A stretch of 64,000 nucleotides of DNA, from positions 62,001-126,000 of the IMG/VR virus record IMGVR_UViG_3300032308_002092; one strand, 5' to 3'. Positions 8,734-46,035 of the stretch are shown one piece after another (positions within the stretch are counted from its first letter, which is position 1; each line of letters starts with the position of its first letter). The notes below the pieces were generated by a model. That model did not search any database. It was not told the DNA's origin and worked only from the letters and a program-made list of their open reading frames with translations. The DNA comes from a virus. The translations under genes and the position numbers were made by a program.

Positions 8734-8737
8734 CTGC

Positions 8738-8977: not shown

Positions 8978-8980
8978 TGC

Positions 8981-33253: not shown

Positions 33254-33311
33254 GACTCGTCAGTCGCGTATACAACGCGAGACCAAGAGCGTGGCTACTC
33301 TTGGTTTCGTC
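33254..33311 (-). ncRNA. Type II hammerhead ribozyme, CUGACGA variant
   Basis: Minus strand: GAC-GAAA, stem III CCAAGAG/CUCUUGG with loop UAGCCACG, UC before the cleavage site, stem I UCGCG/CGCGA with loop UUGUAUA, CUGACGA core, GUC closing the open stem II with the first GAC. All core positions of CUGANGA, GAAA and UH are present. It starts 1 nt after the stop of the gene at 33313. Confidence 0.85.
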
Positions 33312-33312
33312 T

Positions 33313-33819
33313 TTAGCCAACCAAAGCCCTAAGGTGCTCTGGGATTGAGGAGAGGTCGAGTTGCTTTGCTTTGTTTTGGCGAGGGGTCTTAGCTGGCTTG
33401 CTAGCTACCATCTCAGCCCTAACATTAGCAATGAAGTTTTTCACTTCAACGATCTTAGTTTCTTCTGCGCCTGAAGCAATAAGATTCTTGAGTACCTCAG
33501 TTGCTTGCTTGATCTGTGGGTTAGTACGGCTACCAGGGTTTTTAGCTTCATACTTGCCGCCGCCGTTGATCTGAGGTGCCTTATTGAACCAGTTAGCTAC
33601 GACGCTAGAAGCGTAAGACCTGAGTGCTTTGTCGTCATCTAGCTTACCAGCCGAGCGCTGTGCCAAGACGACTTCGCCAGAAATGAAGCCTTCAAGCATA
33701 AGGCTAACGATCTCACGACGTTGCTCTTCAGTTACGTACGAAGAAATGGGGGCACTACTATTAAAACTAGAACCAAGGACCTGCTTAGTATACGTTACGA
33801 CCGCTTCATTTTGTTTCAT
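33313..33819 (-). CDS. NPGSR-family paralog A, 168 aa
   Basis: ATG 33819 with AGGAG. Shares with 42126 and 45512: MKQxxAVV start, MLEGFISGEV, LRSYASSVVANWFNKAP, NGGGKYEAKNPGSR and SIPEHLRALVG end. It is bracketed by hammerhead ribozymes on both sides. Soluble, helical; function unknown. Among the three paralogs this one has the longest middle. Confidence 0.75.
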   Translation of the reverse strand: MKQNEAVVTYTKQVLGSSFNSSAPISSYVTEEQRREIVSLMLEGFISGEVVLAQRSAGKLDDDKALRSYASSVVANWFNKAPQINGGGKYEAKNPGSRTNPQIKQATEVLKNLIASGAEETKIVEVKNFIANVRAEMVASKPAKTPRQNKAKQLDLSSIPEHLRALVG

Positions 33820-33844
33820 GGTAAAACTCCTATATAGAAACATT

Positions 33845-33899
33845 GACTCATCAGTGCTGGAACCTACCAGCAGATACCCTTGGTATCGGGTATTTCGTC
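33845..33899 (-). ncRNA. Type II hammerhead ribozyme
   Basis: GAC-GAAA, stem III UACCC/GGGUA, UC, stem I UGCUGG/CCAGCA with loop UAGGUU, CUGAUGA, GUC. Predicted cleavage between 33873 and 33872 on the minus strand. It starts directly after the stop of 33901 and ends about 25 nt before the ATG of paralog A. Confidence 0.9.
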
Positions 33900-33900
33900 A

Positions 33901-34116
33901 TTAGTCTATTGCTGCGTAGTCATCTGGGAAGAAGGTTTCTTCTTCCATCTGACGGCTATTGAAGTCTAGCTGCTCATACACATCGTCTTCATAGTCGGAC
34001 AAATAGATATAATCTTGGTTGATTTGCACCGTGTTCACGACCATACCATCGGGCATAACCACGGTTGAATTAGGATCTTGTTGCGAAAGAATCTTAATGA
34101 GTTCTGAAACCAGCAT
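33901..34116 (-). CDS. Small acidic protein with SELIxxLxxxDP motif, 71 aa
   Basis: MLVSELIKILSQQDPNSTVVMPDG resembles a widespread small phage/bacterial family of unknown function that starts VxELIxxLxxxDPxxxV. Acidic C-terminal half. Confidence 0.65.
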   Translation of the reverse strand: MLVSELIKILSQQDPNSTVVMPDGMVVNTVQINQDYIYLSDYEDDVYEQLDFNSRQMEEETFFPDDYAAID

Positions 34117-34140
34117 ATCAAACCTCCTTTATTTACTTGT

Positions 34141-34158
34141 GCATATTGATTCGGGAAT
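34141..34158 (-). promoter_or_regulatory. Promoter-like ATTCCCGA-CAATAT element
   Basis: ATTCCCGAATCAATATGC on the minus strand, 25-42 nt before the ATG at 34116, which has AAAGGAGG. Confidence 0.4.
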
Positions 34159-34562
34159 CATGACCTGAGTGTTAGTCTAGTTCCATCTGGCATCGTCGTA
34201 TAGCTTACGTCGGATGGTAAGGCACTGGTCACTCTAGTGAAGGTTTCTAGTTGCTTGCCTTTACCATCGAACGATCGCGCGCAGCCTGTGCCATCACACA
34301 AGATGAATGAGTCTTGGTTGTAAGTCTGAGCCATGCTCTTCATCAAGTCAAACAACGACCAGCCTATGGTGTTAGGCGAACCACTTACAAGCCAAACATT
34401 CTCCATCTGATCTTTGTAAGATCCTCTGACGTACGTAGTTTTAAACCCATTCATCCTAATGAAGAAGCCTAGCTGCTCATGATCCTGCATATTTCTAATG
34501 TCGTCTTTGTCGCTTTTGTCTGCGGAGATCAGAGCGAAGATAGTATCTAAATCTAGTTTCAT
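34158..34562 (-). CDS. Hypothetical protein, 134 aa
   Basis: Mixed fold; SFILCDGTGCARSFDGKGKQ contains a short Cys pair. Unknown. Confidence 0.6.
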   Translation of the reverse strand: MKLDLDTIFALISADKSDKDDIRNMQDHEQLGFFIRMNGFKTTYVRGSYKDQMENVWLVSGSPNTIGWSLFDLMKSMAQTYNQDSFILCDGTGCARSFDGKGKQLETFTRVTSALPSDVSYTTMPDGTRLTLRS

Positions 34563-34563
34563 G

Positions 34564-34725
34564 TTAACCCCACTTTCGTTTGTTTGCTAAAACACAAAGT
34601 ACACCAAAGAATAAAGATATTAAGAACTTGAAAAAAGCATACTCAAGATTGCCGTTAATCAAATCAAACCATCCAAATACCTGTAGGAAGATACTTACGA
34701 TAAACAGCGCGATGGCTAAGTTCAC
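34564..34725 (-). CDS. 53-aa membrane protein, GTG start
   Basis: GTG 34725 with AAGGAGAGG. Two hydrophobic segments (residues 3-17 and 30-48) separated by FDLINGNLEY; a KRKWG tail. Third of three overlapping small membrane genes. Confidence 0.5.
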   Translation of the reverse strand: MNLAIALFIVSIFLQVFGWFDLINGNLEYAFFKFLISLFFGVLCVLANKRKWG

Positions 34726-34784
34726 TTGCCTCTCCTTACGATCAGGAGGATCGCGGTAATTATTTTCTTAAAAAAGTCAATCAT
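34722..34784 (-). CDS. 20-aa hydrophobic peptide
   Basis: ATG 34784 with AAGGAGAGA; overlaps both neighbours by 4-8 nt. Basic/hydrophobic single helix (FFKKIITAILLIVRRGK). Translation is likely given the strong SD; role unknown. Confidence 0.45.
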   Translation of the reverse strand: MIDFFKKIITAILLIVRRGK

Positions 34785-34926
34785 CTTTCTCTCCTTCTTT
34801 TTCTGGGTGAAATTTATCGAGCACCTTAGCGAAGATCATCAGCAGCAGTACTGTTACTGCGAGCCCACCGATTATTGATATCGGTATCGCGACTCCAATA
34901 GCTATAACGTAAAGCAATATACTCAT
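34777..34926 (-). CDS. 49-aa membrane protein
   Basis: ATG 34926 overlaps the upstream stop (TAATG). Residues 3-34 are hydrophobic, tail KFHPEKEGEKDD. Holin-like in size but not in a lysis context. Confidence 0.5.
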   Translation of the reverse strand: MSILLYVIAIGVAIPISIIGGLAVTVLLLMIFAKVLDKFHPEKEGEKDD

Positions 34927-35120
34927 TAGCTAACTTCCTCGCTTTCCTCGTAGATGTACCAGTCATTGGGCTTAAGACTAGCTGTCTTCTGCTCATACTC
35001 GTGTTTGCCGTATGAATACGCGAAGGCTCTGCCGTTCCAAACTATGAACGGAGCTGGGTGATCTTTGTGTGAGATCTTAGCTCCCTTGAGGGCCTCAATC
35101 AATGCTTCTTCTAGAGTCAT
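34926..35120 (-). CDS. Hypothetical protein, 64 aa
   Basis: ATG 35120 with GGAG 6 nt upstream, preferred over a TTG at 35132. Contains HPAPFIVWNGRAFAYSYGKHE. Resembles small phage proteins of unknown function. Confidence 0.6.
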   Translation of the reverse strand: MTLEEALIEALKGAKISHKDHPAPFIVWNGRAFAYSYGKHEYEQKTASLKPNDWYIYEESEEVS

Positions 35121-35122
35121 GA

Positions 35123-35263
35123 TCAGCTCCAATCGTTAGGGTCTTTGTTTTTGCCCTTGACTTCTTCGTAGAAGATAATACAAAGCAATCCCACCATGAA
35201 GATGCCACCAAAGAAACCCGCTATAGAAATTGCAGCCATGAATCCTGTTAATGCTGAGTCCAC
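35123..35263 (-). CDS. 46-aa membrane protein, GTG start
   Basis: GTG 35263 with AGGAG. One long hydrophobic helix (residues 8-32) and a KGKNKDPNDWS tail. The spacing to 35120 implies coupled translation. Confidence 0.5.
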   Translation of the reverse strand: MDSALTGFMAAISIAGFFGGIFMVGLLCIIFYEEVKGKNKDPNDWS

Positions 35264-35267
35264 GATA

Positions 35268-35618
35268 TTACTCTCCTAGTATTTGTTGCTCTATTTGTTG
35301 CGTCATATATTTGTCTAACGTGAACTGAATAACATGGTTGTGAACATCTTTTACCTTTAGATAAACCGAATGAGGTGTTAGATCGCCTCTTGAATTCAGA
35401 TAGCAGTTCGCTACTAGCTTAAAGGAATAAGGGGTTTTTGGATGTTTTATGGTCTTAGATACTGTGGTGTACGACTTACCTTTTCGCTTAGCACACTCTT
35501 TAACAGCATAATGGTAGTGAGAGATAAGGGCGTCTAGGGTAAATTCGCTGCCTTCTACTGGACCCAGGCTTAGGTCTATGATTGTTCTATGCTCTCCAGT
35601 AACCGTAAATAAACACAT
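35268..35618 (-). CDS. Hypothetical protein, 116 aa
   Basis: Basic, beta-rich (HSVYLKVKDVHNHVIQF). Unknown. Downstream small membrane genes follow at short spacing. Confidence 0.6.
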   Translation of the reverse strand: MCLFTVTGEHRTIIDLSLGPVEGSEFTLDALISHYHYAVKECAKRKGKSYTTVSKTIKHPKTPYSFKLVANCYLNSRGDLTPHSVYLKVKDVHNHVIQFTLDKYMTQQIEQQILGE

Positions 35619-35666
35619 GTTGCTAACCCCTACTCGTTATCGTTGAATAGTATTGGTTTCGGATAC

Positions 35667-35903
35667 TCACTTAAGGTCTTGTGTCTCTGAGTAGAGAAGG
35701 TGTGACATAGAGTCCATCACCACAAGAGTACTCTGCTTGCCATACTTAGACACCATGTCTGCCTTGAGGGAGCGAAACTCAGCTCTACACTTCTCTCGCT
35801 CTGCGACTTCTCTGAAGTATTGTCTACCCTCGGCGGCCTCGTAGTAAGAGAGATCAGCTATGGATACTATAAATTTTTTGATTAGCTCGCAATTGTAGTT
35901 CAT
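35667..35903 (-). CDS. Hypothetical protein, 78 aa
   Basis: ATG 35903 with GGAGG. Helical, charged; ends LLYSETQDLK. Unknown. Confidence 0.6.
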   Translation of the reverse strand: MNYNCELIKKFIVSIADLSYYEAAEGRQYFREVAEREKCRAEFRSLKADMVSKYGKQSTLVVMDSMSHLLYSETQDLK

Positions 35904-35915
35904 GCAACCTCCAAT

Positions 35916-35933
35916 AAGATATTGGATCGGGAT
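35916..35933 (-). promoter_or_regulatory. Promoter-like ATCCCGA-AATATC element
   Basis: ATCCCGATCCAATATCTT on the minus strand, 13-30 nt before the ATG at 35903, directly after a GDG-family stop codon. Confidence 0.4.
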
Positions 35934-36163
35934 CACCTATCGGATGGGTTGCCGTGGCCGTTATCGCATAAGTCTTCTCCACAGCCAGCGCCACCGCCAC
36001 ACCCATCACCATAACCGTTGCCATCGCCATAGCCATCACCACTAGGGCTGCAATTACTTAAACCACAGCCATAACCATCGCCGCTTTTCTTAATATAGTT
36101 GTCACCATTGGGTCTACCGTAATGGTAACCGTAGCTAAAACCATCTATTTCTAGAGATTCCAC
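35933..36163 (-). CDS. GDG-family protein, 76 aa, GTG start
   Basis: ESLEIDGFSYGYHYGR start, SGDGYGDGNGYGDGCGGGAGCG repeat block, GNPSDR end. Five Cys. The upstream member's TGGTGAG is its SD. Confidence 0.8.
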   Translation of the reverse strand: MESLEIDGFSYGYHYGRPNGDNYIKKSGDGYGCGLSNCSPSGDGYGDGNGYGDGCGGGAGCGEDLCDNGHGNPSDR

Positions 36164-36169
36164 GATAGC

Positions 36170-36388
36170 TCACCAATCAGATGGGTAGTGATCGAACCGA
36201 TCTTCGGTGCCACTACCGCAACCATCACCATACTCATCGCTATGTCCATCACCTCTGCCATAACCGTCGCCGTCAGCAGTGCCACCACTTAAACCCCAAC
36301 CATCACCATCGCTGTAAGTATGACTATCGCCGTTGGCCATGCCGTAACGATCGCCGTAACCAAAAGCATCTATTTTTAGAGATTTCAT
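36170..36388 (-). CDS. GDG-family protein, 72 aa
   Basis: KSLKIDAFGYGDRYG start, ADGDGYGRGDGHSDEYGDG block, DHYPSDW end. One Cys. First of a two-gene pair. Confidence 0.8.
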   Translation of the reverse strand: MKSLKIDAFGYGDRYGMANGDSHTYSDGDGWGLSGGTADGDGYGRGDGHSDEYGDGCGSGTEDRFDHYPSDW

Positions 36389-36408
36389 GGTTTATTCTCA
36401 GTCTGAGA

Positions 36409-36744
36409 TTAAAGCCACTTATTCAAGTCAGCTTTCATCACAAAGATATCCTTACCGAAGATCGTACCAGCTTCGTTTAGCACAGTCTCAGCCTGAGGAC
36501 CTTCGACGCACAGCTGGCCGAGACCCTTGGTCGTACCCCATCGGTGGATGTTGTAGGCGTTGTCAAGCCTGATTCTCTCGCTGGAGAGGCGAGTAACGAA
36601 GCCGATGAATACCCAACCGCGATCCATGACTGCGATGACTAGATCGCCGTTCTCATAGTCAAGCTTAGGCTGAGGTGCGCCTCGCAAAGACTCCTCAACC
36701 TGACTGTTGATTACATAATTACCGAATAACTTACTCTTAGCCAT
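36409..36744 (-). CDS. Hypothetical protein with RWGTTKGLGQL motif, 111 aa
   Basis: YNIHRWGTTKGLGQLCVEGP and GDLVIAVMDRGWVFIGFV suggest a small beta-barrel-type protein of a family common in large phages. AAAGGAGG precedes the ATG. Confidence 0.65.
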   Translation of the reverse strand: MAKSKLFGNYVINSQVEESLRGAPQPKLDYENGDLVIAVMDRGWVFIGFVTRLSSERIRLDNAYNIHRWGTTKGLGQLCVEGPQAETVLNEAGTIFGKDIFVMKADLNKWL

Positions 36745-36770
36745 AATAAACCTCCTTTGTTTCTGTCTAT

Positions 36771-36785
36771 ATTTATATCGGAAAT
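36771..36785 (-). promoter_or_regulatory. Promoter-like TTTCCGA-TATAAA element
   Basis: ATTTCCGATATAAAT on the minus strand, 27-41 nt before the ATG at 36744. Confidence 0.4.
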
Positions 36786-36801
36786 GATACTCTGTGGACC
36801 G

Positions 36802-36882
36802 TTACAATCCTCTTTCGCTGTTATACATCAGAAATACAATCGCAACAGTGAAACCAAGTATAAGTAGCGCAAATACACTCAT
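36802..36882 (-). CDS. 26-aa membrane peptide
   Basis: ATG 36882 overlaps the upstream stop (TAATG). Hydrophobic residues 2-19, tail MYNSERGL. No own SD; re-initiation expected. Confidence 0.4.
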   Translation of the reverse strand: MSVFALLILGFTVAIVFLMYNSERGL

Positions 36883-37097
36883 TAAGAAATCTCGCTTGCT
36901 TCTACGTATTGGCTGAAGATTTCTGGGTATCTTTGTACGTAACCGTTGTCTTCTAGGAAGTAGTACAGAGCTACACCAGGTGGTACTTCGTCATCGAAGT
37001 TGCTCCGCCAAGCGTAGTCTTCGAAGTCACTCGTAGTTAATCCCGTGACCTTAACACACAGCTTATCTACTTTGTTCATGTAAGACTTGAAAGACAT
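36882..37097 (-). CDS. Hypothetical protein, 71 aa
   Basis: SYMNKVDKLCVKVTGLTTSDFEDYAWRSNFDDEVPPG matches the style of a small acidic phage family (GLTtxDxxD). Function unknown. Confidence 0.6.
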   Translation of the reverse strand: MSFKSYMNKVDKLCVKVTGLTTSDFEDYAWRSNFDDEVPPGVALYYFLEDNGYVQRYPEIFSQYVEASEIS

Positions 37098-37155
37098 ACA
37101 AACCCCTTATTGAAGACACCCCATCGTTGGGATATATAATCTGGTTTCGGGATTC

Positions 37156-37350
37156 TCACCAGTCTGATAGATCATCGTAGCCATAACAGTCACCGTAGCT
37201 CTCTCCATCACCATTTCCATAGCCGTATCCGCTACCACTACCGTCGTATTCTGTAATGATGATGATATTAGGGCCTTCAGAGCCGCTGTCGCCGTCACCG
37301 TTATAGTGGCCGTCACCACAACCCCAGCCATCTATTTCTAGCTTGTCCAT
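37156..37350 (-). CDS. GDG-family protein, 64 aa
   Basis: DKLEIDGWGCGDGHYNGDGD start, an unusual hydrophobic NIIIITEYD insert, GSGYGYGNGDGESYGDCYGYD block and DLSDW end (Leu for Pro). Shortest member. Confidence 0.8.
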   Translation of the reverse strand: MDKLEIDGWGCGDGHYNGDGDSGSEGPNIIIITEYDGSGSGYGYGNGDGESYGDCYGYDDLSDW

Positions 37351-37356
37351 TGCTCT

Positions 37357-37596
37357 TCACTTATCTGACGGGCCGTGATGGCCCTTGCCACTGCCATCTC
37401 CAACAACGAGATCTTGCCCCAGACAATTTAGATCATAACCATAGCCATCGCCATTAGGGAGGCTGTCTCCGTAGCCACAGCCATACCTCTCTCCATCGTA
37501 GCCATAACCATAGTTCCCATGGACACCACTGCCATCGCCGCAGAAGTAACCGTGAAAGCGTCCATAACCTAAGCCGTCTATGTCTAGCTTGTCCAT
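37357..37596 (-). CDS. GDG-family protein, 79 aa
   Basis: DKLDIDGLGYGRFHGYF start, GYGYDGERYGCGYGDS block, LGQDLVVGDGSGKGHHGPSDK end. Spacing of 6 nt to the next member. Confidence 0.8.
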   Translation of the reverse strand: MDKLDIDGLGYGRFHGYFCGDGSGVHGNYGYGYDGERYGCGYGDSLPNGDGYGYDLNCLGQDLVVGDGSGKGHHGPSDK

Positions 37597-37599
37597 GGT

Positions 37600-37896
37600 T
37601 TATGCTTTACGCTTCTTCTTTTGGCCGTCTTTGATGGCCTGAACCTCTGCTTGGTCAAGCGGGACACCGTGGCGGTACCAGCTATCACCCCACACCGCGC
37701 CGTCTTCCCAGTAGGTTATAGCAGGGCTACCCTCACGATGTAACCTACCTTGGCAATACCAATACTCGGTGTCTACCTTGCCGTCTTCGCTATAGTAGAC
37801 AATGGCAGGGCCATCCACACGATGTGGAACACCCTCCTCCAGGTATCGCTCGGACTCTACCTTACCGTTTTCGTAGTGTTTCTTAACGCACTCCAT
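37600..37896 (-). CDS. MORN/YwqK-like repeat protein, 98 aa
   Basis: Three repeats of the type HRxDGPAxxYxxDGxxxxxxWYxxG (PHRVDGPAIVYYSEDG, LHREGSPAITYWEDG). These resemble the YwqK/MORN_2 repeats found in some antitoxin-type and phage proteins. It lies inside the GDG cluster and may be acquired. Function unknown. Confidence 0.7.
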   Translation of the reverse strand: MECVKKHYENGKVESERYLEEGVPHRVDGPAIVYYSEDGKVDTEYWYCQGRLHREGSPAITYWEDGAVWGDSWYRHGVPLDQAEVQAIKDGQKKKRKA

Positions 37897-37908
37897 AAAT
37901 CTCCTTGA

Positions 37909-38148
37909 TTACCAATCTGAAGGCATGTCATGATCATCACCTGAACCCCAGCCGTTGCCGTGGTTGTAGGACGTATCACCATAGCCAACACCATCGCGAT
38001 AAATTGGGTGATAGCCACGACCATGGAGATCACTGCCACCATTGCCCCAGCCATCCCCACTCGCCATGGAGTATTCACCTTCTCCCTCGCCGTTACCATC
38101 CCACCAACAGTCTGGTGAGCCGTCGCCATCTATGTCTAGCTTTTCCAT
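37909..38148 (-). CDS. GDG-family protein, 79 aa
   Basis: EKLDIDGDGSPDCWWDGNG start, SGDGWGNGGSDLHGRGYH centre, DDHDMPSDW end. It is the least Tyr-rich member. Confidence 0.8.
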   Translation of the reverse strand: MEKLDIDGDGSPDCWWDGNGEGEGEYSMASGDGWGNGGSDLHGRGYHPIYRDGVGYGDTSYNHGNGWGSGDDHDMPSDW

Positions 38149-38155
38149 AAGTTAG

Positions 38156-38422
38156 TTACCAATCTGAGGGTTCTAAATCTTCCCCATCACCAGCACCATC
38201 TCCACCGGTGTCGCCACCAGAACCGTCGCAATAACCATCACCGCCGAGGGTGGTATAACCGCTGCCTCTTCCGTCGCCGGTTCCAGTGCCGCAGTCGCCG
38301 TCGCCATAGCGATCGTCTGGTATAGAGGGGCTATAGCAACCTATACCGCCGTCCCCATTAGGGGACGTTCTGTCTACACCACAACCAAATCCATCCACAG
38401 CGAGCTTGCTTTCTAATATCAC
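38156..38422 (-). CDS. GDG-family protein, 88 aa, GTG start
   Basis: SKLAVDGFGCGVDRTSPNGDG start, GDGDCGTGTGDGRGSGY centre, GDGEDLEPSDW end. GTG 38422 with AGAGGA. Four Cys. Confidence 0.8.
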   Translation of the reverse strand: MILESKLAVDGFGCGVDRTSPNGDGGIGCYSPSIPDDRYGDGDCGTGTGDGRGSGYTTLGGDGYCDGSGGDTGGDGAGDGEDLEPSDW

Positions 38423-38434
38423 TTAATATGTCCT

Positions 38435-38668
38435 CTACCAGTCAGAAGGGTCACCCTCAGGCTGTATCTCATGGAATTGGATGAATGTCATAGAATCGGA
38501 TTTTGTGAGTTCGTGTTCGCCGTAGCCATAGCCGTCACCATTTGGTTTGGTTCTGCCTATGAAGCTATCTGGCGTTTTTACGCCCTCTCCAAAGCCGTCG
38601 CCATGTATCCTACCGTATTGACCATAGCCGTAGCCAACTCCGTCTACGATCGTCTCGCCTATCTTCAT
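38435..38668 (-). CDS. GDG-family protein, 77 aa
   Basis: GETIVDGVGYGYGQYGRIHGDG start, PNGDGYGYGEHELTKSD, then a non-repetitive MTFIQFHEIQPEG and DPSDW. Its 5' end lies in a ~37-bp direct repeat that recurs at 39092-39129. Confidence 0.8.
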   Translation of the reverse strand: MKIGETIVDGVGYGYGQYGRIHGDGFGEGVKTPDSFIGRTKPNGDGYGYGEHELTKSDSMTFIQFHEIQPEGDPSDW

Positions 38669-38687
38669 GGGTCCTCATATCCATTAA
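38650..38687. repeat. ~37-bp direct repeat, copy 1
   Basis: The shared core is GGTCCTCATATCCATTAAAG with CCTATCTTCAT before it and CTGCC after it; one mismatch to the second copy at 39092-39129. It spans the junction of the GDG gene at 38435 and the gene at 38665. Confidence 0.7.
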
Positions 38688-39069
38688 AGCTGCCCGCCAA
38701 GAAAAGCCGCCCGCCAAGAACGCTATTGAGCTTAACGTAGTTAAACTCTTCTTTTGAGGTTCGCTTAAGTGTTTCAAGCATAAATAGCTTCTTGGCTTCC
38801 TCTGATTCCATCACTTTGATACCATCTACCCAGATGCTGCATTCCGGACTACATATCTCTTCATACCCAGCCTTATATCCAGCAGCGGACACCTCTTCTA
38901 AAGTGAGAGGCTGGTCTTTGATGGCCTCATACATTTCTCGCACCTGTTCATACGACACTTCTGTTTTGCGATGAGGACCCCCAGTTTGTTGAGAGCCGTT
39001 CTCACTACCTCCTTGACCATTATGGGAAACCATTAGGCCCATCACTATAAACGCCGCCGCCGCACCCAT
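38665..39069 (-). CDS. Exported or anchored protein, 134 aa
   Basis: N-terminal hydrophobic stretch (AAAAFIVMGLMV), Gly/Ser/Gln linker, then a soluble domain with CSPECSIWVDG. 4-nt overlap with the GDG gene downstream. Unknown. Confidence 0.6.
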   Translation of the reverse strand: MGAAAAFIVMGLMVSHNGQGGSENGSQQTGGPHRKTEVSYEQVREMYEAIKDQPLTLEEVSAAGYKAGYEEICSPECSIWVDGIKVMESEEAKKLFMLETLKRTSKEEFNYVKLNSVLGGRLFLAGSFNGYEDP

Positions 39070-39091
39070 TACTTACCCTCCTCTTTCTTAC

Positions 39092-39129
39092 ACAACACCT
39101 ATCTTCATAGGTCCTCATATCCATTAAAG
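39092..39129. repeat. ~37-bp direct repeat, copy 2
   Basis: Second copy of the repeat at 38650-38687. On the minus strand it recreates the end of the 38665 gene (GSFNGYED) and a GDG-type start (ATGAAGATAGG), then stops. It looks like a scar of duplication and deletion in the GDG cluster. Confidence 0.6.
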
Positions 39130-39405
39130 CTGCCACCATTTACGTGGGGTGCGTGGGACACTTGCATGAGGATGCGGCTTTTCTATCTCAAGGTGCCGAA
39201 TGGCTACAACATCAAATAGCTCTATCCCATTCGTGTTGCGACCCTCTTTATCAACGTAAACACAGGAAGCAACCCCCGGAGCAAACAGCACCATTAAATA
39301 AAACGCCGGTGACCAATCAGCGCGTTCGTTGAATTCAACAAACGAACCCACTAGTCCGTTTCTAAGTGTGATCTCGTCCCAAGCCTTTAGTTTTGTAATA
39401 TCCAT
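39124..39405 (-). CDS. Hypothetical protein, 93 aa
   Basis: AAGGAGG before the ATG. Beta-rich (FYLMVLFAPGVASCVYVDKEGR). Basic C-terminus. Unknown. Confidence 0.6.
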   Translation of the reverse strand: MDITKLKAWDEITLRNGLVGSFVEFNERADWSPAFYLMVLFAPGVASCVYVDKEGRNTNGIELFDVVAIRHLEIEKPHPHASVPRTPRKWWQL

Positions 39406-39476
39406 AATGGCCTCCTTTTTATAGTAATTTTAATACACTAATCATTCCCAAACTTCAATCTCACCAGTCAGCTCAA

Positions 39477-39722: not shown

Positions 39723-39723
39723 A

Positions 39724-39876
39724 TTACAAACTACTCCCAAACTTCAATCTCACCACTCCGAAGGGGTCTCCCTTAGTATCCCTGTCTCTTGTACCTGCAA
39801 AATGGGCACCGAACAACAGTCTAACATTACCTTGAGAACCGAAGTCCTCATCAAAGACTGGCAGGCTTCGTCCCAT
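39724..39876 (-). CDS. 50-aa hypothetical protein
   Basis: ATG 39876 with GGAG 8-9 nt upstream, stop TAA immediately before the next ATG. FGSQGNVRLLFGAHFAGTRDRD. In another frame its 3' part reads TPSEW then TGA, the ending of GDG proteins, so it may overlie a degraded family member. Confidence 0.45.
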   Translation of the reverse strand: MGRSLPVFDEDFGSQGNVRLLFGAHFAGTRDRDTKGDPFGVVRLKFGSSL

Positions 39877-39879
39877 GCC

Positions 39880-39951
39880 TCACACTCCAACTACATACAG
39901 AACGAAGATCCCTATCAGGATGGCAGCCCAAACCCCAATTAGTATCTCCAT
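39880..39951 (-). CDS. 23-aa membrane peptide
   Basis: ATG 39951 preceded by AAGGGGATAGGG. Almost entirely hydrophobic (EILIGVWAAILIGIFVLYVV). Role unknown. Confidence 0.45.
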   Translation of the reverse strand: MEILIGVWAAILIGIFVLYVVGV

Positions 39952-39964
39952 AGTCCCTATCCCC

Positions 39965-40159
39965 TTAAAGCAGGCTCAGTATGAAGCCTAGCACCACCAA
40001 GAACACCCAAAGCACCACAGAGTACAAAACAACAGTCAAGTACCATAGCCACAAAGCGGTCATCCCGACTATCTCTCTGAAGCCGGGGATAGACATCAAA
40101 CCGCATACTGCAGCTATAGCCAACACCAGTACGACCACCCTTGCCAGTAAGCGCCGCAT
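39965..40159 (-). CDS. 64-aa membrane protein
   Basis: ATG 40159 with GGGAGGGG. Two or three hydrophobic helices covering most of the protein; no charged tail. Followed closely by the 23-aa peptide. Unknown. Confidence 0.55.
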   Translation of the reverse strand: MRRLLARVVVLVLAIAAVCGLMSIPGFREIVGMTALWLWYLTVVLYSVVLWVFLVVLGFILSLL

Positions 40160-40230
40160 AACCCCTCCCCATATCGTGATTCATATACCTTCGGAATATA
40201 ACTCAAGGGTCTGATGCCCACTTCCCACCC

Positions 40231-40440
40231 CTACTTAAACTTACAGCTCAAACCAGCTTTATTCAGGCCGTTATATCTATAGCAAATCACTTCGCTATTC
40301 TCTAGTCTGTACACACCAAAACCAACCGCCTTAGCTTCGCTAAAGCCATACTCACCGTCAACACCTCCATCAACGTTAGGCTCAGATACCCTAAAAGTAC
40401 ATCCGCTCAATACAATCAATCCAACCACTAGCACCTTCAT
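40231..40440 (-). CDS. Small lipoprotein, 69 aa
   Basis: MKVLVVGLIVLSGC is a lipoprotein signal peptide with lipobox LSGC. The mature part is about 55 residues with two Cys. GGGAGGGG precedes the ATG. Last gene before the non-coding region. Confidence 0.65.
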   Translation of the reverse strand: MKVLVVGLIVLSGCTFRVSEPNVDGGVDGEYGFSEAKAVGFGVYRLENSEVICYRYNGLNKAGLSCKFK

Positions 40441-41470
40441 AAACCCCTCCCCACAATTACCCTACAACTATCCATTATCAATTCGGAATCCCATACCTTA
40501 CCTTCCCCAAACCCTGGGTGGAAGATATAGTAACCGCCGTAACTAACTTATAAACCCCTAAAATAACCTCTTATAACAACCTATACCCACCTATACCCAG
40601 TTATAACTACCTACTAATCCCTATACCCTCAAATACCCTAATCCCCTACGTAACTACTACTATTAGATACACTTAAGTGCCAAAACCTACCGTAACTAAC
40701 ACGTACGTATCACCTTAACCCCATACCATTCCCAACCAACCACCTATACCAGTTAGTAGCACGAAAGGGATAGGGAGTGGACTGGTAGAGTTATAGTGAT
40801 AATGATCCTCACCATTACTATAGGAAAGACATAAAAACTATAGTGATTTAACTAGCCTAGGGCGAGCCTATAGGCAGGTTGTTTCCGCCCACAACTATCC
40901 CTACTCTCGCAACAACATCTCTCACTTGTGGCCACGCCGCGGTAACCTATAGGGTTACAAATCACCACGGTTTTGCCCACCTATAGGTTTACAGGTCGGG
41001 TATCCTGCTCCCTCCTACCCTATCCCTACAGATACCTCCCGGGTGGTTTGCGTGTTGTCCTAGGGGTAAATCGGGTGTCGAGGAAATCATTAGGCTTTTT
41101 GGTAGTTGGGTTGGGAATGGTGCTTTCCCCTAGGGGTAAAATGAGATAGGTGGGTGGCTTTGTTGATATTGCTAGAGATTTTAGTTTCGGGATGATAGGA
41201 GTGAGAGAAGTCCTAGGGAGTTTTGCTCGTTTTAGGGCTTCGGGTGTGGGGCGTAGCAGTGTCAGGTGGTTTGGTGGGGTTGTTGGGCTACGGGGTGGGA
41301 TAATGATATCAGTGAGTTACGGGTGTTTTGGTGGCGCGAGTTGGTGCGCTTAGGGCTGGGGGTTTATATACACTTTTATTTTGTGGTCTTGAGTTGTAGT
41401 TGGGAGAGTAGGATAAGTAGGGTGCGAATTCAAGTTGTTTGGGGGTGGCTATGATAAGCCCGTAGCCCAA
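40441..41470. other. Non-coding region with strand-composition switch (candidate origin or packaging region)
   Basis: No credible gene is seen in about 1 kb. Up to about 40,990 the plus strand is rich in C, A and T with repeats like CCTATACCC and ACTACCTA; from about 41,030 it becomes G/T-rich. Around the switch are three copies of the palindrome CCTATAGG (40867, 40946, 40980), the inverted repeat GTAACCTATAGGGTTAC and two copies of CCTAGGGGTAAA (41059, 41129). A copy of CGTAGCAGTGTCA lies at 41252. These features suit a replication origin, a terminus or a pac/cos region. Confidence 0.45.
41252..41264 (+). repeat. 13-bp repeat CGTAGCAGTGTCA, copy 2
   Basis: Exact copy, in the G/T-rich half of the non-coding region; not next to a ribozyme. 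Confidence 0.6.
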
Positions 41471-41713
41471 TCAGACTATATACTCTTCGTCTAGTGGCTC
41501 ATCGTATAGGTGAGCTATGGAGTGCCATGGTCCTGGGACTGTGAAGAGGTCTAAGTTGCCAGAGCGTATAGCGTGAGCCTTAGCCATAGCTTCGTCCATG
41601 TCAGAGTGAGAGGAAACTACCCACGTCACTAGGTTGTGGACTTCGGAATCCACCTTCACGATAGTGTCGAAAGTAGAGTGGTCGTACATCACGAAGTACC
41701 TAATAGGTTGCAT
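41471..41713 (-). CDS. Hypothetical protein, 80 aa
   Basis: AAGGAG before the ATG. Contains HNLVTWVVSSHSDMDEAMAKAH; acidic C-terminus EPLDEEYIV. Unknown. Confidence 0.6.
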   Translation of the reverse strand: MQPIRYFVMYDHSTFDTIVKVDSEVHNLVTWVVSSHSDMDEAMAKAHAIRSGNLDLFTVPGPWHSIAHLYDEPLDEEYIV

Positions 41714-41725
41714 AACATAGTCTCC

Positions 41726-41797
41726 TTACTTAATGGACAAGTTAATGAAGATGAGAGTCATTATCAACAAGAATATAGCCGCTGTGCCTGGATCCAT
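41726..41797 (-). CDS. 23-aa membrane peptide
   Basis: ATG overlaps the upstream stop (TGATG). MDPGTAAIFLLIMTLIFINL, one hydrophobic helix. The SD of the next gene follows its stop directly. Confidence 0.4.
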   Translation of the reverse strand: MDPGTAAIFLLIMTLIFINLSIK

Positions 41798-42012
41798 CAC
41801 TCTGTCTCTTCCACGGTTATGGTGTAGGACTTGTCGTACTGGTCCTTCACTATGATGGTGCGCTTAGGTGACCTAAAGCTACCGTCTTCGTTTAAGTCCA
41901 TCTTTATCTCTACGTTCCTGAGCTTTATCTCAGTCGCCTTAGGTATGGCCGCAGTGATCACATGAGTGATATAGTCGCAGTATGCTAATCTCAACCCGCT
42001 TGACTTAAACAT
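41797..42012 (-). CDS. Hypothetical protein, 71 aa
   Basis: AAGGAGG before the ATG. Beta-rich (KLRNVEIKMDLNEDGSF, RTIIVKDQYDKSYTITVEE). Lies downstream of the hammerhead at 42052-42112. Confidence 0.6.
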   Translation of the reverse strand: MFKSSGLRLAYCDYITHVITAAIPKATEIKLRNVEIKMDLNEDGSFRSPKRTIIVKDQYDKSYTITVEETE

Positions 42013-42051
42013 AGTCGTTCCTCCTTATATAGGGGATGGTATCGGAAACCG

Positions 42052-42112
42052 GACTCATCAGCATGGCTATCAGCCATGGACCTAGGATCTCGAGCGAGTC
42101 CTAGGTTTCGTC
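42052..42112 (-). ncRNA. Type II hammerhead ribozyme, long stem III
   Basis: GAC-GAAA, stem III CCUAGGA/UCCUAGG with an 11-nt loop, UC, stem I CAUGGC/GCCAUG with loop UGAUA, CUGAUGA, GUC (stem II extends to GGAC/GUCC). Lies 13 nt after the stop of paralog B (42126). Confidence 0.9.
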
Positions 42113-42125
42113 CTCGGTTACGGAC

Positions 42126-42572
42126 TTATCCCACCAGGGATCTCAAGTGCTCGGGTAGTGCGGAGAGGTCCACAGTCTTGGCAGCAGACTTAGGCTGTGG
42201 GCGGTTAGCTTCAATGAACGCTTCGAGCTCAGCTGTAACTTCAGATCCCTTAGCGATCAGAGCCGCTTTGAGAGCTAGAGCTTGCTTGAACTCTGGGCTA
42301 CCAGATCGGCTACCAGGGTTCTTGACTTCGTGCTTGACCCCACCGTTGAGGGCAGGTGACTTACGGAGCCAGTTGCTGAGCAGACCTGAAGCGTAGCTTC
42401 GCGCCTTAGCTTCGCTGTACTCCTTGCTCAAGCTGATCTCTCCGTTCATGAGTCCCGCTACGAGCATACCGATTGCTTCCTTGCGTTGCTCACTAGTTAG
42501 GGTGACTGCTTCCGCAGTTACTCCAACGATTGACTGTACGATCTCTACGACTGCCTTTGATTGTGACTTCAT
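42126..42572 (-). CDS. NPGSR-family paralog B, 148 aa
   Basis: ATG 42572 with AAGGAG. MLVAGLMNGEISLSKEYSEAK, RSYASGLLSNWLRKSPALNGG, KNPGSRSGSPEFKQALALK and SALPEHLRSLVG. It is closest to paralog C (45512). Hammerheads on both sides. Unknown function. Confidence 0.75.
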   Translation of the reverse strand: MKSQSKAVVEIVQSIVGVTAEAVTLTSEQRKEAIGMLVAGLMNGEISLSKEYSEAKARSYASGLLSNWLRKSPALNGGVKHEVKNPGSRSGSPEFKQALALKAALIAKGSEVTAELEAFIEANRPQPKSAAKTVDLSALPEHLRSLVG

Positions 42573-42591
42573 ATGTAACACTCCTTAATTA

Positions 42592-42646
42592 GACTCATCA
42601 GTGCCAGAACCTACTGGCAGATACCCTTGCTATCGGGTATTTCGTC
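42592..42646 (-). ncRNA. Type II hammerhead ribozyme
   Basis: GAC-GAAA, stem III UACCC/GGGUA, UC, stem I UGCCAG/CUGGCA with loop UAGGUU, CUGAUGA, GUC. Stem III and loop nearly match the copies at 33845 and 45981, while stem I has compensatory changes, strong evidence for a conserved RNA fold. Confidence 0.9.
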
Positions 42647-42651
42647 TTAAG

Positions 42652-42801
42652 TTACCGACAGTAGTGATCGGCGTAGTTGCAGTAGAAGTCATAGACTTCG
42701 TCGTCAGTCCACGAGTCACAAGAGTAGTCTACGTCATCGTTTCCCGCTGCGATCATCTGAGCGAGGATGATGTTCACCGTAGTGCGAAGCGAACCTCTCA
42801 T
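42652..42801 (-). CDS. 49-aa acidic Cys/Tyr-rich protein
   Basis: ATG 42801 with AAGGAG. DDVDYSCDSWTDDEVYDFYCNYADHYC: three Cys and many Asp/Tyr. Its stop is 5 nt before the hammerhead. Confidence 0.55.
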   Translation of the reverse strand: MRGSLRTTVNIILAQMIAAGNDDVDYSCDSWTDDEVYDFYCNYADHYCR

Positions 42802-42840
42802 ATGAAGCACTCCTTGGTTAATCAACCTTGGTTGGTTGAT

Positions 42841-42862
42841 AGTTATATATGGTATCGGGAAA
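42841..42862 (-). promoter_or_regulatory. Promoter-like TTTCCCGA-TATATA element
   Basis: TTTCCCGATACCATATATAACT on the minus strand; about 40-60 nt before the ATG at 42801. Confidence 0.4.
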
Positions 42863-42911
42863 CTGGGGCTGCATCGGATCGTGGGGCCGAGGTGTGGGTT
42901 CGGGTGCTGGG

Positions 42912-42924
42912 CGTAGCAGTGTCG
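42912..42924 (+). repeat. 13-bp repeat, copy 3 (last base G)
   Basis: CGTAGCAGTGTCG, one mismatch. Lies just after the stop of the gene at 42949, about 50 nt upstream (minus strand) of a TTTCCCGA element. Confidence 0.55.
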
Positions 42925-42948
42925 GGCTTCACGCAGACACCCTCGGTA

Positions 42949-43131
42949 TCACTCCAGACCCTTGCAGGAGCTAGCGTCGTTGCTCTCGTTGGCCTGACAA
43001 GCCACGTACTTCTCGCTGCTTTCCTTGGAGTTAGCCACCGAGATCTCACCTACTACGTTGATGGAGGTGTTGACTACAACTCCGCCCACGATAGCGTACA
43101 CACAGTACAAGACCACTAGTTCGATGCCCAT
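42949..43131 (-). CDS. Small exported or membrane protein, 60 aa
   Basis: Hydrophobic residues 4-22, then a soluble Cys-containing part (YVACQANESNDASSCKG) that could form a disulfide outside the cytoplasm. AAGGGG before the ATG. Confidence 0.6.
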   Translation of the reverse strand: MGIELVVLYCVYAIVGGVVVNTSINVVGEISVANSKESSEKYVACQANESNDASSCKGLE

Positions 43132-43170
43132 TATAATGCCCCTTATAAACCTTAAAGCCCACTTAAACTG

Positions 43171-43191
43171 CCATTCTAATAGCTAGAATGG
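43171..43191 (-). promoter_or_regulatory. Inverted repeat in leader
   Basis: CCATTCTA and TAGAATGG, 8-bp arms around 5 nt, in the 92-nt spacer upstream of the gene at 43131. Related half-sites (TATTCTAAAATCTAGTATG) follow, suggesting an operator. Confidence 0.35.
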
Positions 43192-43223
43192 TATTCTAAA
43201 ATCTAGTATGTTATACTTTGCCC

Positions 43224-43541
43224 TTACCCCGGCAAGTTCTGCTTGTAGTACAAGTCACCCCAGTCGATGTAGAAGTCCTCGACCTTAGCGTGATCCCAAG
43301 CGTCGGACCACAGCTTGATATCCTCGTAGCTATCCATGCTCATCTCCCTGCCAGTCACCAACTTAAAGGCATCGTTCATGAACATATTAGCGTCTACGTA
43401 GTCATGCGAAGCGCACTCATGCTTATGGTTGTGCTTGTTAGCTTCGCATATATCAACCATAGTGGCTAGACCAAGCTCAGCCATCAGTAACTCGGAGAAC
43501 TTTTCTGCTATCTGTTCGTGTAGCTCTACTTCGAAATCCAT
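43224..43541 (-). CDS. Hypothetical protein, 105 aa
   Basis: Acidic, helical, His-rich centre (ANKHNHKHECASHD). Ends NLPG like its upstream neighbour. Unknown. Confidence 0.6.
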   Translation of the reverse strand: MDFEVELHEQIAEKFSELLMAELGLATMVDICEANKHNHKHECASHDYVDANMFMNDAFKLVTGREMSMDSYEDIKLWSDAWDHAKVEDFYIDWGDLYYKQNLPG

Positions 43542-43544
43542 CGT

Positions 43545-43700
43545 TCACCCCGGTAAGTTGTCTAGTATAAAGTTAAGCTCTTCTACTACTTCGTCGGAAA
43601 CAGGTTGATCTAGTGCCTCATCAGGTACATCTGGGTAGTATTCCAGCTTGAATTCGTCCCAAGCGAACTGCATTAACTGTCTAAGCGTAAGTTCGTTCAT
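43545..43700 (-). CDS. 51-aa acidic protein
   Basis: ATG 43700 with GAGGTGG, stop TGA at 43545. Helical and acidic (DEFKLEYYPDVPDEALDQP), ending NLPG like its downstream neighbour. Overlaps the upstream stop by 4 nt. Confidence 0.55.
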   Translation of the reverse strand: MNELTLRQLMQFAWDEFKLEYYPDVPDEALDQPVSDEVVEELNFILDNLPG

Positions 43701-43906
43701 TGTCCACCTCTTTCTTCTAAGGCTTGATACACTCGCTTCAGTAGCTCTGTGGGTTCGGTATAGAAATCATCCTTATCTAACTGCACCATATCCAGGTTTA
43801 TCAGCGCCTGACTGAACCTCATATCGGGATAGGTCCTCAAGTAGGTCTCTAGTATCCGTAGTAGCTCCAAGTTAGCATGTAGTCGGACGCTCGTTGGTTG
43901 ACTCAT
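43697..43906 (-). CDS. Hypothetical protein, 69 aa
   Basis: TAGGAGG before the ATG. Starts MSQPTSVRLHANLELLRIL, the look of a small ribbon-helix-helix protein, but too short to be sure. Confidence 0.55.
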   Translation of the reverse strand: MSQPTSVRLHANLELLRILETYLRTYPDMRFSQALINLDMVQLDKDDFYTEPTELLKRVYQALEERGGQ

Positions 43907-43950
43907 AATAACCTCCTAGTTACATATAGATATAGATTCGGATACGACTA

Positions 43951-44127
43951 TCAGAACCACTCACCCTTTCTTACAATCACCACTCTACTCGCTGTATTGA
44001 CTATCATCGCTCTTCTCCTTCTGCCATCGGAGAAGTATCTCATAGCCTCTTGTAAAGCAGAGAATGAGTGTATAGTCATGAAAGACCGTGCATCAGTTGA
44101 GCCGTGCCAAACCTGAACTTGATACAT
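43951..44127 (-). CDS. Basic protein, 58 aa
   Basis: ATG 44127 with GGAG, preferred to 44139. GRRRRAMIVNTASRVVIVRKG at the end. Unknown. Confidence 0.55.
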   Translation of the reverse strand: MYQVQVWHGSTDARSFMTIHSFSALQEAMRYFSDGRRRRAMIVNTASRVVIVRKGEWF

Positions 44128-44166
44128 AATAAACTCCAATGTGTAAGAGAACTTTGTTATTCTCTT

Positions 44167-44218
44167 ATTAATAATATATAGTTACGGGAATTAAATTCCC
44201 CTGGGCGTAGCAGTGTCA
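44167..44218. repeat. ~50-bp repeated leader module, copy 1
   Basis: TTATTAATAATATATAGTTACGG, a hairpin GGGAATTAAATTCCC and CTGGGCGTAGCAGTGTCA; nearly the same module occurs at 45427-45477. It contains a TTCCCG promoter-like motif (minus strand) and copy 4 of the 13-bp repeat (44206-44218). Confidence 0.6.
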
Positions 44219-44226
44219 GATAGTGG

Positions 44227-44232
44227 TATAAT
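44227..44232 (+). promoter_or_regulatory. TATAAT -10 box for the 44255 gene
   Basis: GTGGTATAAT lies 22 nt before the ATG on the plus strand; no good -35. The 13-bp repeat occupies the -15 to -30 region. Similar TATAAT boxes precede plus-strand late genes (48751, 51924, 56501, 62977). Confidence 0.4.
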
Positions 44233-44254
44233 ACCCTTAGGTTAAGGAGAACAC

Positions 44255-44731
44255 ATGGAAAAGCTAATCAAGCATAGCAACGGGCAGTGGACACTAGTTA
44301 AGGCCAAGGACACTAGTAAGCACGGCAACTTCGGTGGTGGTAACTCCTTTGACGGAGGAGACCAGTATGTCCCCTCTAAAGAGGGTATTGCAGCAAACGC
44401 GGCTAGAGCAGCGGAGCAGAAACGCCTAGAAGCAGAAGCGAGCGCAGTATCGGCTGCACACAAAGATGTAGCCGACAGAGGCGAAGTTCGCCGACGCACC
44501 GAGCCGCCGAAAACCGTAGAAGATCACCCACTACACGGCGAGTTAGTTAATCACTTCAAGAACAAGCATGGGTTGGACCATCACGCTGCGTTTGCTGCGG
44601 CTACTCATGTCATGACTTCGGGCCTCGGCGAAAAGACTCATGAAAGTGACTCAGATAAAGCAGCTACTGGTTCTGGAGCAGCCGAGGCCAAGAAGATCCT
44701 GGCTGGTAAGGTTAAGACCAAGATCTCTTAG
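44255..44731 (+). CDS. Probable late protein, 158 aa
   Basis: AAGGAG before the ATG. MEKLIKHSNGQWTLVKAKD start, Ala-rich helix with VPSKEGIAANAARAAEQKR, then HGLDHHAAFAAATHVM. It is on the late strand, isolated among minus genes; an internal virion or head-associated protein is possible. Confidence 0.55.
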   Translation: MEKLIKHSNGQWTLVKAKDTSKHGNFGGGNSFDGGDQYVPSKEGIAANAARAAEQKRLEAEASAVSAAHKDVADRGEVRRRTEPPKTVEDHPLHGELVNHFKNKHGLDHHAAFAAATHVMTSGLGEKTHESDSDKAATGSGAAEAKKILAGKVKTKIS

Positions 44732-44733
44732 TC

Positions 44734-44747
44734 GTCTTATATAAGAC
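44734..44747. terminator. Palindrome between convergent genes
   Basis: GTCTTATATAAGAC, a perfect 14-bp palindrome, covers the stop of the minus-strand gene (44737) and abuts the stop of the 44255 gene. Likely bidirectional terminator. Confidence 0.45.
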
Positions 44748-45003
44748 CTTGTTCACTCAGTTGCTTCATCAGTGAATCATCATTCTTAGACCCAAAGACT
44801 CTCACTACATCCTCATAATCACATAGTTCATCGGGGTCGTCGTGACATACGAACGCTAGTCCTTCGACTGTCTTCCACACTGAGAACTCATATATGCAGT
44901 GAACTCCTGTCTCTACGTAACCATCAGGTTCAGTGATTGAGCCATCGAACATCTTCCCCGCTTCTAACTCTGCAACAAGTTGATCGACTGTGAACTTACT
45001 CAT
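44737..45003 (-). CDS. TGVHxIYxFxVW-family paralog 1, 88 aa
   Basis: MSKFTVDQLVAELEAGKM, TGVHCIYEFSVWKTVEGLAFVC and DPDELCDYEDVVRVF; co-linear with the protein at 45080. The pair is separated by a hammerhead ribozyme. Function unknown. Confidence 0.7.
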   Translation of the reverse strand: MSKFTVDQLVAELEAGKMFDGSITEPDGYVETGVHCIYEFSVWKTVEGLAFVCHDDPDELCDYEDVVRVFGSKNDDSLMKQLSEQGLI

Positions 45004-45021
45004 AGTGACTCCTTAAAGTTA

Positions 45022-45079
45022 GACTCATCAGTGTGACTCTTAGTCACAGACTATCTTCGTTTCGGAAGATAGTTTCGTC
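45022..45079 (-). ncRNA. Type II hammerhead ribozyme between tandem paralogs
   Basis: GAC-GAAA, stem III CUAUCUUC/GAAGAUAG with loop CGAAAC, UC, stem I UGUGAC/GUCACA with loop UAAGA, CUGAUGA, GUC. The first G follows the TAA stop of 45080 directly. Confidence 0.9.
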
Positions 45080-45346
45080 TTATGCGAGACCTACTGCACT
45101 CAGCTGCTGATCAAGAGTGTCGTCTTCCTTATCCTCCTCGAAGAACCGCTTGACATCGTCGTAAGTTAGTATCTCATCGGGGTCTTCAGTGCATATGAAC
45201 CTCAAACCTTCGTCAGTGTCCCACACCTCGAAGTCGTATATGGAGTGAACACCGGTGCTCACGCCTCCGTGTGACAGGAACTCACCTGCAGTTAGTCTAC
45301 CATCGGCGATCGCTTCTTCTAACTCTCTGACTGTGATCTTACTCAT
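45080..45346 (-). CDS. TGVHxIYxFxVW-family paralog 2, 88 aa
   Basis: MSKITVRELEEAIADGRL, TGVHSIYDFEVWDTDEGLRFIC and DPDEILTYDDVKRFFEED. Same length as paralog 1 and clearly homologous. GAGGAG before the ATG. Confidence 0.7.
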   Translation of the reverse strand: MSKITVRELEEAIADGRLTAGEFLSHGGVSTGVHSIYDFEVWDTDEGLRFICTEDPDEILTYDDVKRFFEEDKEDDTLDQQLSAVGLA

Positions 45347-45426
45347 GACTTCTCCTCATGTTGTTCACACATTAATAGAATCGGAAAACACACTAATAAA
45401 TATTTAAGTTTTTCAACTCATTTATT

Positions 45427-45477
45427 TATTAATAATATATAGTTTCGGAAACTATATCCCTGGGCGTAGCAGTGTCA
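45427..45477. repeat. ~50-bp repeated leader module, copy 2
   Basis: Second copy of the module at 44167-44218, with a hairpin ATATAGTTTCCGAAACTATAT instead of the GGGAATT one and copy 5 of the 13-bp repeat at 45465-45477. It lies between paralog C (45512) and the gene at 45346. Confidence 0.6.
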
Positions 45478-45511
45478 GTGGGTACGGGCACCACGCCCGC
45501 ACCCAACTCAC

Positions 45512-45961
45512 TTAGCCAACCAACTTCTGGAGGTGCTCGGGAAGCGCTGAGATATCCACGGTCTTCTCGGTCTTCACCGGAGCGTTGGCTGCGATGAACA
45601 TCAGGAGCCCAGTAGGAATCTCCTTGCCTTGCTCAGCCAAGTACTTCTTAAGCGCGATCGCTTGCTTGTACTCATTGCTCCCACTTCGTGAGCCTGGGTT
45701 CTTAGCTACGTACTTCACTCCGCCATTCAACTCGGGCGACTTACGTACCCAGTTGTCCAGCAGTCCCACCGAGTAACTCCTCATCTTCTCGGGAGTGTCG
45801 TGCTTAGCCCGAGCACCCGCGCTCATATCAATCTCACCATCAACCAAGCCTTGTGTGATCAGAGTCAAGCACTCTTCTTTCTGCTCCTTGGTCAACTTAA
45901 CTCCGGGAGTAAATCCCTCGATCCCACTCACGATCGCTACGACTGCATCTACTTGCTTCAT
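45512..45961 (-). CDS. NPGSR-family paralog C, 149 aa
   Basis: MKQVDAVVAIVSGIEG start, LITQGLVDGEIDMSAGARAK, RSYSVGLLDNWVRKSPELNGG, KNPGSRSGSNEYKQAIALK, SALPEHLQKLVG end. Hammerhead just upstream (45981-46035). Unknown function. Confidence 0.75.
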   Translation of the reverse strand: MKQVDAVVAIVSGIEGFTPGVKLTKEQKEECLTLITQGLVDGEIDMSAGARAKHDTPEKMRSYSVGLLDNWVRKSPELNGGVKYVAKNPGSRSGSNEYKQAIALKKYLAEQGKEIPTGLLMFIAANAPVKTEKTVDISALPEHLQKLVG

Positions 45962-45980
45962 GTAACACTCCTTAAAGTTA

Positions 45981-46035
45981 GACTCATCAGTGCAACCACT
46001 TAGTTGCAGATACCCTTGCTATCGGGTATTTCGTC
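45981..46035 (-). ncRNA. Type II hammerhead ribozyme
   Basis: GAC-GAAA, stem III UACCC/GGGUA, UC, stem I UGCAAC/GUUGCA with loop UAAGUG, CUGAUGA, GUC. It starts 1 nt after the stop of the 41-aa gene upstream and ends 19 nt before the ATG of paralog C. Confidence 0.9.

Follow-up and report, generated by a model that had tools for sequence, protein, structure and literature searches.

Type II hammerhead ribozymes, including gene-flanking clusters in prophages, were described by Perreault et al. in 2011, who proposed that they cut long phage transcripts (PMC3088659). Tandem hammerheads were reported to cleave in vitro, one set also in Escherichia coli, and a pseudoknot between loop I and the 3' tail was described for most type II members (PMC3088659). 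A 2017 review noted the link with phages and called the role of prokaryotic hammerheads open (PMC6155905). We analyzed a 64,000-nucleotide (nt) stretch of viral DNA, hereafter the window, which comprises positions 62001-126000 of the IMG/VR record IMGVR_UViG_3300032308_002092 (total 151,207 bp) and carries six minus-strand elements, HH1 to HH6 (Table 1), with the fold of a type II hammerhead. Our analysis supports, at the level of sequence, that the six are genuine type II hammerhead ribozymes, and we consider it likely that they are competent and act in cis on minus-strand polycistronic transcripts, yielding shorter messages that end in hairpins.

The six elements share with the bacterial and prophage type II hammerheads (PMC3088659; Rfam RF02276) the core, the circular order of parts, a short and open stem II, and multiple gene-flanking copies; as in the prophage clusters, several copies on the same strand flank genes of one phage region. 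They differ in that all six score below the RF02276 cut-off and in that the pseudoknot could comprise at most 3-4 pairs and appears to be absent in HH3. Unlike in the prophage clusters, three copies are tied here to one paralogous gene family, which we call family A (genes A1, A2, and A3). The triple hammerhead near ardA in Agrobacterium tumefaciens is likewise a set of hammerheads that separate genes transcribed together, but it has three copies and other genes, and its self-cleavage was demonstrated both in vitro and in E. coli carrying the cloned sequence (PMC3088659), whereas the six described here are known from sequence. Retrozymes and viroid-like circular RNAs likewise carry more than one self-cleaving hammerhead per RNA. 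Those hammerheads, however, are mostly of types I and III and lie in non-coding circles, whereas the elements described here are of type II and separate the protein genes of a DNA phage; a retrozyme has a non-coding unit between direct-repeat hammerheads, and the segments between the copies in the window hold protein genes.

Arrays in IMG/VR (G084, G044, G054, G067, and G086) are of the same subtype, with a GAC- or GGUC-type stem II, and likewise lie on one strand at cistron junctions, but they are larger; the five contigs carry 7, 8, 8, 9, and 11 hammerheads. The original prediction, made from the window alone, had regarded six copies in one region as exceptional. This view was not supported, because other viral contigs carry up to 11 and because clustered prophage hammerheads, for which the same role was proposed, have been on record since 2011 (PMC3088659). 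The locus is a new example of a known phenomenon and not a new kind. The locus with 11 copies (L266; G084:13800-19800, on a 39-kb viral contig) has its type II hammerheads on one strand at most gene junctions over 5 kb, and several of them have a GGUC/GACC stem II.

Identity and fold of the six elements

The pattern GACGAAA-N{15,40}-TC-N{10,40}-CTGANGAGTC gave six matches in the window, all on the minus strand, and six in the whole record, and it gave none in 100 dinucleotide-preserving shuffles of the window. A separate three-helix descriptor found the identical six in the window and none in the reversed or complemented sequence. Circularity was avoided by training a covariance model, R1, on eight hammerheads from other IMG/VR contigs. 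R1 recovered all six elements with scores of 40.8-50.0 bits (E values of 9.6e-12 to 5.3e-15), and its search of the window and of the whole 151,207-bp record detected no further hammerheads. The pattern, the helix descriptor, and R1 thus confirmed the coordinates and strand originally given for the elements.

A search with the Rfam type II model had been suggested as a check. None of the six reached the gathering score of RF02276, and only HH4 was reported at all (29.4 bits, with a cut-off of 37), whereas R1 found every one of them. At the same gathering score, no hammerhead passed in nine other hammerhead-bearing loci, those with intact cores included. Because of this failure elsewhere, we concluded that the Rfam negative reflects a narrow model; it carries little weight, the cut-off being a curation threshold and not a biological feature. 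Annotation of phages that relies on this cut-off overlooks the present hammerhead subtype. A BLAST search with HH6 against sequenced phages returned nothing relevant.

Each element reads, in order, GAC-GAAA, a stem III hairpin, UC, a stem I hairpin, CUGANGA, and GUC, with stems I and III closed by loops and stem II open. None of the six lacks any part of the catalytic core: CUGANGA and GAAA are intact, an A-U pair precedes the cleavage site, and the cleavage-site nucleotide is C. The circular order of type II with an open stem II, as originally proposed, was borne out by the agreement of the descriptor and R1.

We then considered covariation. When 88 matches, of which 86 were distinct, were aligned, standard pairs occupied 99.6% of the cells, and covariation was seen in all three helices. 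The covariation score of the 86 sequences was 0.83, compared with 0.17 when the pairing partners were shuffled and at most 0.16 when they were slid. Because this alignment had been fitted to the hammerhead structure, the comparison of HH2, HH4, and HH6 within the window is the cleaner evidence. These three align without gaps, are 84-91% identical, and agree at 36-37 of the 37 positions of the core, stem II, and stem III. In stem I, two to three double changes were found, always compensating, and single changes were zero. Such changes indicate that the fold has been under selection inside a single genome. The earlier claim of compensatory variation in the stems stands for stem I, but the stem III hairpin is the same in HH2, HH4, and HH6 except for one loop base. 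Taken together, the independent model R1, the covariation over 86 distinct sequences, and the compensatory changes among HH2, HH4, and HH6 uphold the assignment to type II hammerheads.

A loop I/3' tail pseudoknot of 3-4 pairs could form in five copies but not in HH3, whose stem II, as read from the flanking sequence, could instead be extended by ACCG/CGGU. Over 110 elements, the mean score of this pairing was 6.78, compared with 6.36 for shuffled tails, and none of 200 shuffles scored as high.

Table 1. Coordinates of the six hammerhead elements, neighbouring genes, and short motifs in the window (aa, amino acids; predicted cuts are read from the structure)
Feature	Coordinates	Strand	R1 bits	E value	Predicted cut	Remarks
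HH1	33254..33311	-	40.8	9.6e-12	33281/33280	core intact
HH2	33845..33899	-	45.0	3.1e-13	33873/33872	precedes A1
HH3	42052..42112	-	43.4	1.2e-12	42079/42078	follows A2
HH4	42592..42646	-	44.2	6e-13	42620/42619	precedes A2
HH5	45022..45079	-	44.0	7.2e-13	45049/45048	between two 88-aa genes
HH6	45981..46035	-	50.0	5.3e-15	46009/46008	precedes A3
Gene A1	33313..33819	-				168 aa; HH2 before, HH1 after; aligned with A2 and A3
Gene A2	42126..42572	-				148 aa; paralogue of A1; HH4 before, HH3 after; used in alignment and tree
Gene A3	45512..45961	-				149 aa; paralogue of A1 and A2; HH6 before, no hammerhead after
88-aa gene upstream of HH5	45080..45346	-				stop codon immediately before HH5 (0 nt)
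88-aa gene downstream of HH5	44737..45003	-				resembles the upstream 88-aa gene; start 18 nt past HH5; Shine-Dalgarno AAGGAG
GACACTGCTACGCC copies	33232-33246, 41249-41263, 42909-42923, 44203-44217, 45462-45476	-				also in related contigs G001-G040
TTCCGANNCTAT copies	45375-45386, 45439-45450, 42036-42047, 43932-43943 and others	-				promoter-like

Position between cistrons and proposed mRNA self-cutting

All six elements lie between cistrons on the coding (minus) strand. From HH1 to HH6, the distances from the preceding stop codon to the element are 1, 1, 13, 5, 0, and 1 nt, in agreement with the range of 0-13 nt in the original prediction; the stop is less certain at two elements, where the upstream frame has a length of only 41 and 57 aa, respectively. 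In the same order, the distances from the element to the next start are 70, 25, 39, 19, 18, and 19 nt. The elements had also been said to end shortly before the Shine-Dalgarno sequence of the next gene, but HH1 is not close to the next start.

This arrangement was compared with a survey of 109 distinct type II hammerheads from viral contigs, which included the six elements and two from related phages. In this survey, 81% of the elements have a stop codon on the same strand no more than 20 nt ahead of them, compared with 12% of random positions in the same loci, and the commonest stop-to-element distance was 0 nt (29 of 109). The combination of such a stop with a start codon and Shine-Dalgarno sequence within 80 nt was seen for 66%, compared with 3% of random positions. 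All 18 multi-copy loci keep their copies on one strand, and the cover by open reading frames, a noisy measure, favours the ribozyme strand by 82 to 31. These data yield a simple placement rule across many viruses, in which the hammerhead lies directly past a stop codon and a short way ahead of the next start.

We propose the following mechanism. Each cistron junction would fold during transcription and self-cleave where stem III gives way to stem I. This would leave the upstream mRNA with the stem III hairpin at its 3' end, terminated by a 2',3'-cyclic phosphate, and the downstream mRNA would start with the stem I hairpin and a 5'-OH. If such cleavage takes place in the cell, the new ends could influence the stability of the messages, so that neighbouring genes, notably A1 to A3, may differ in mRNA lifetime and yield, to the presumed benefit of the phage. 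Folding of the predicted products gave a stable terminal hairpin on both sides of the cut in most copies, and these stem III and stem I ends favour processing of a polycistronic transcript. Unmasking of the Shine-Dalgarno sequence by cleavage was considered as a general mechanism and rejected, because folding of the six showed no consistent change. The idea that the mRNA cuts itself is directly testable, and the three near-identical copies linked to paralogues provide a useful natural experiment.

Linkage to gene family A and competing explanations

Genes A1 to A3 are 37-59% identical in amino acids and 51-58% in nucleotides, with 40-46% identity at third codon positions. They have diverged much further than HH2, HH4, and HH6 in front of them, which retain 84-91% identity. 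Protein A had no match in PHROG or Pfam, and the AlphaFold model of A3, which is helical and fairly confident (predicted local distance difference test score, pLDDT, of 83), gave no significant match in the PDB. Related A genes were found with an alignment of the three genes; single A genes as queries of viral contigs gave nothing or only this phage. The family is marked by the motif NGGxKYxxKNPGSR. It is conserved, often in several copies per phage, among a large set of uncultured myoviruses (L128-L144 and others), which are related by their tail sheath.

Outside this phage, a confident hammerhead was found in 2 of 42 related contigs (L143 and L171), and both flank an A gene. In L143, the hammerhead precedes the gene and has a GGUC/GACC stem II, and in L171 it directly follows the gene. 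In a tree of the family, A1 to A3 of the window form a branch of their own, and the A genes of L143 and L171 fall on other branches. Because of this branching, the linkage of hammerheads to A genes probably arose more than once. Family A was not found in the scanned hammerhead loci L007-L126. A shared function for the genes that follow hammerheads in other phages was also sought among 79 proteins and rejected, as these were heterogeneous (DUF932, helicases, HNH endonucleases, and AAA proteins); DUF932 was the commonest identified family directly after phage type II hammerheads in L007-L126, with 5 of the 79.

Several observations weigh against self-cutting of polycistronic mRNA as the function of these elements. 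Most of the related phages have gene A without any hammerhead, and the device is therefore dispensable. No hammerhead follows A3, and HH1 stands 70 nt from the next start. The identity of stem III and its loop among HH2, HH4, and HH6 could stem from recent copying. Finally, some bacteria can degrade mRNAs that bear a 5'-OH end, as with the glmS ribozyme in Bacillus, and the effect of cleavage could thus be destabilising.

Other explanations were weighed against the same data. The patchy distribution among the related contigs would fit selfish or hitch-hiking elements that copy themselves, cleave, and are tolerated between genes as harmless, with no function for the phage. Identical copies within single contigs (L065 and L086), whose matching flanks extend over only a few tens of bases, and variable parts that resemble one another more closely inside a contig than across contigs (0.63 vs. 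0.39) suggest the same. But the compensating stem I changes that followed duplication require that the fold be selected, the spacing to stop and start codons is tighter than mere avoidance of coding sequence gives, and the linkage to family A recurs in related phages; we regard a purely selfish nature as unlikely. It is extremely improbable that the elements are not ribozymes but ordinary terminators or chance hairpins resembling the motif. The lack of an Rfam match at the gathering score would agree with this, but the Rfam model also misses all comparable phage elements tested, and complete cores in all six, no match in shuffles, scores of 41-50 bits with the independent R1, and no U-tract after stem III argue to the contrary. 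Very little likelihood attaches to the notion that two hammerheads together excise an RNA with a single gene, which is then circularised in the manner of retrozymes and viroid-like RNAs. A1 and A2 are indeed flanked by hammerheads on both sides, which would give the end chemistry for ligation, but A3 and the gene pair at HH5 have no second copy, no ligase was identified in this analysis, and an earlier study of prophage hammerheads sought circles and spliced products and detected none (PMC3088659).

A special form of the mRNA-cutting reading would make the hammerhead a switch gated by translation, in which a ribosome that terminates translation of the upstream gene would sit over stem II and GAAA and prevent folding, and translation upstream would thereby determine whether the two messages are parted. 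Stop distances of up to 20 nt fall well inside the ribosome footprint. The distances in the window, and the prevalence of 0 nt and of values within 20 nt in the survey, would agree with gating, but the proximity to stop codons may only reflect compact phage genomes, and folding showed no consistent unmasking of the Shine-Dalgarno sequence upon cleavage; gating is attractive as an idea, but we give it a modest chance. A broader proposal is that stop-abutting type II hammerheads are a general cistron-separating device of phages, gated by the terminating upstream ribosome, with hairpin ends that set separate lifetimes, and that this device became attached more than once to one multi-copy family in the present clade. 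This proposal is speculative and doubtful, though it might be correct. The reading that we prefer remains cis-cleavage of the polycistronic transcripts at the six junctions.

Other repeats and the host

Tail-sheath relatives of this phage occur in contigs binned as Cytophagales and Saprospiraceae, and this metagenome binning hints at a host in the Bacteroidota. Among sequenced phages, even the closest resemble the tail sheath weakly, sharing no more than 28% identity along a portion of the protein.

A motif of 13-15 nt, GACACTGCTACGCC, is repeated between genes in this phage, where 0.38 copies were expected, and is present in 30 of the 42 related contigs, in which its copies are mostly clustered on one strand; a reversed-pattern control was near zero. 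Among 63 distinct copies, 52% come immediately after a hairpin of 6 bp or more, compared with 5% of random positions, and in L136 the motif is preceded by a hairpin and a T-run. The motif may belong to a transcription terminator specific to this clade or to an mRNA 3'-end signal. A promoter-like sequence, TTCCGANNCTAT, was matched 11 times when one mismatch was tolerated, compared with 4.0 expected matches, often downstream of GACACTGCTACGCC, and may be a phage promoter. Finally, many imperfect repeats of about 23-35 nt (for example, CCGTAGCCAACGCCGTCGCC) were observed in two clusters of small genes, at 7622-9318 and 35976-38647.

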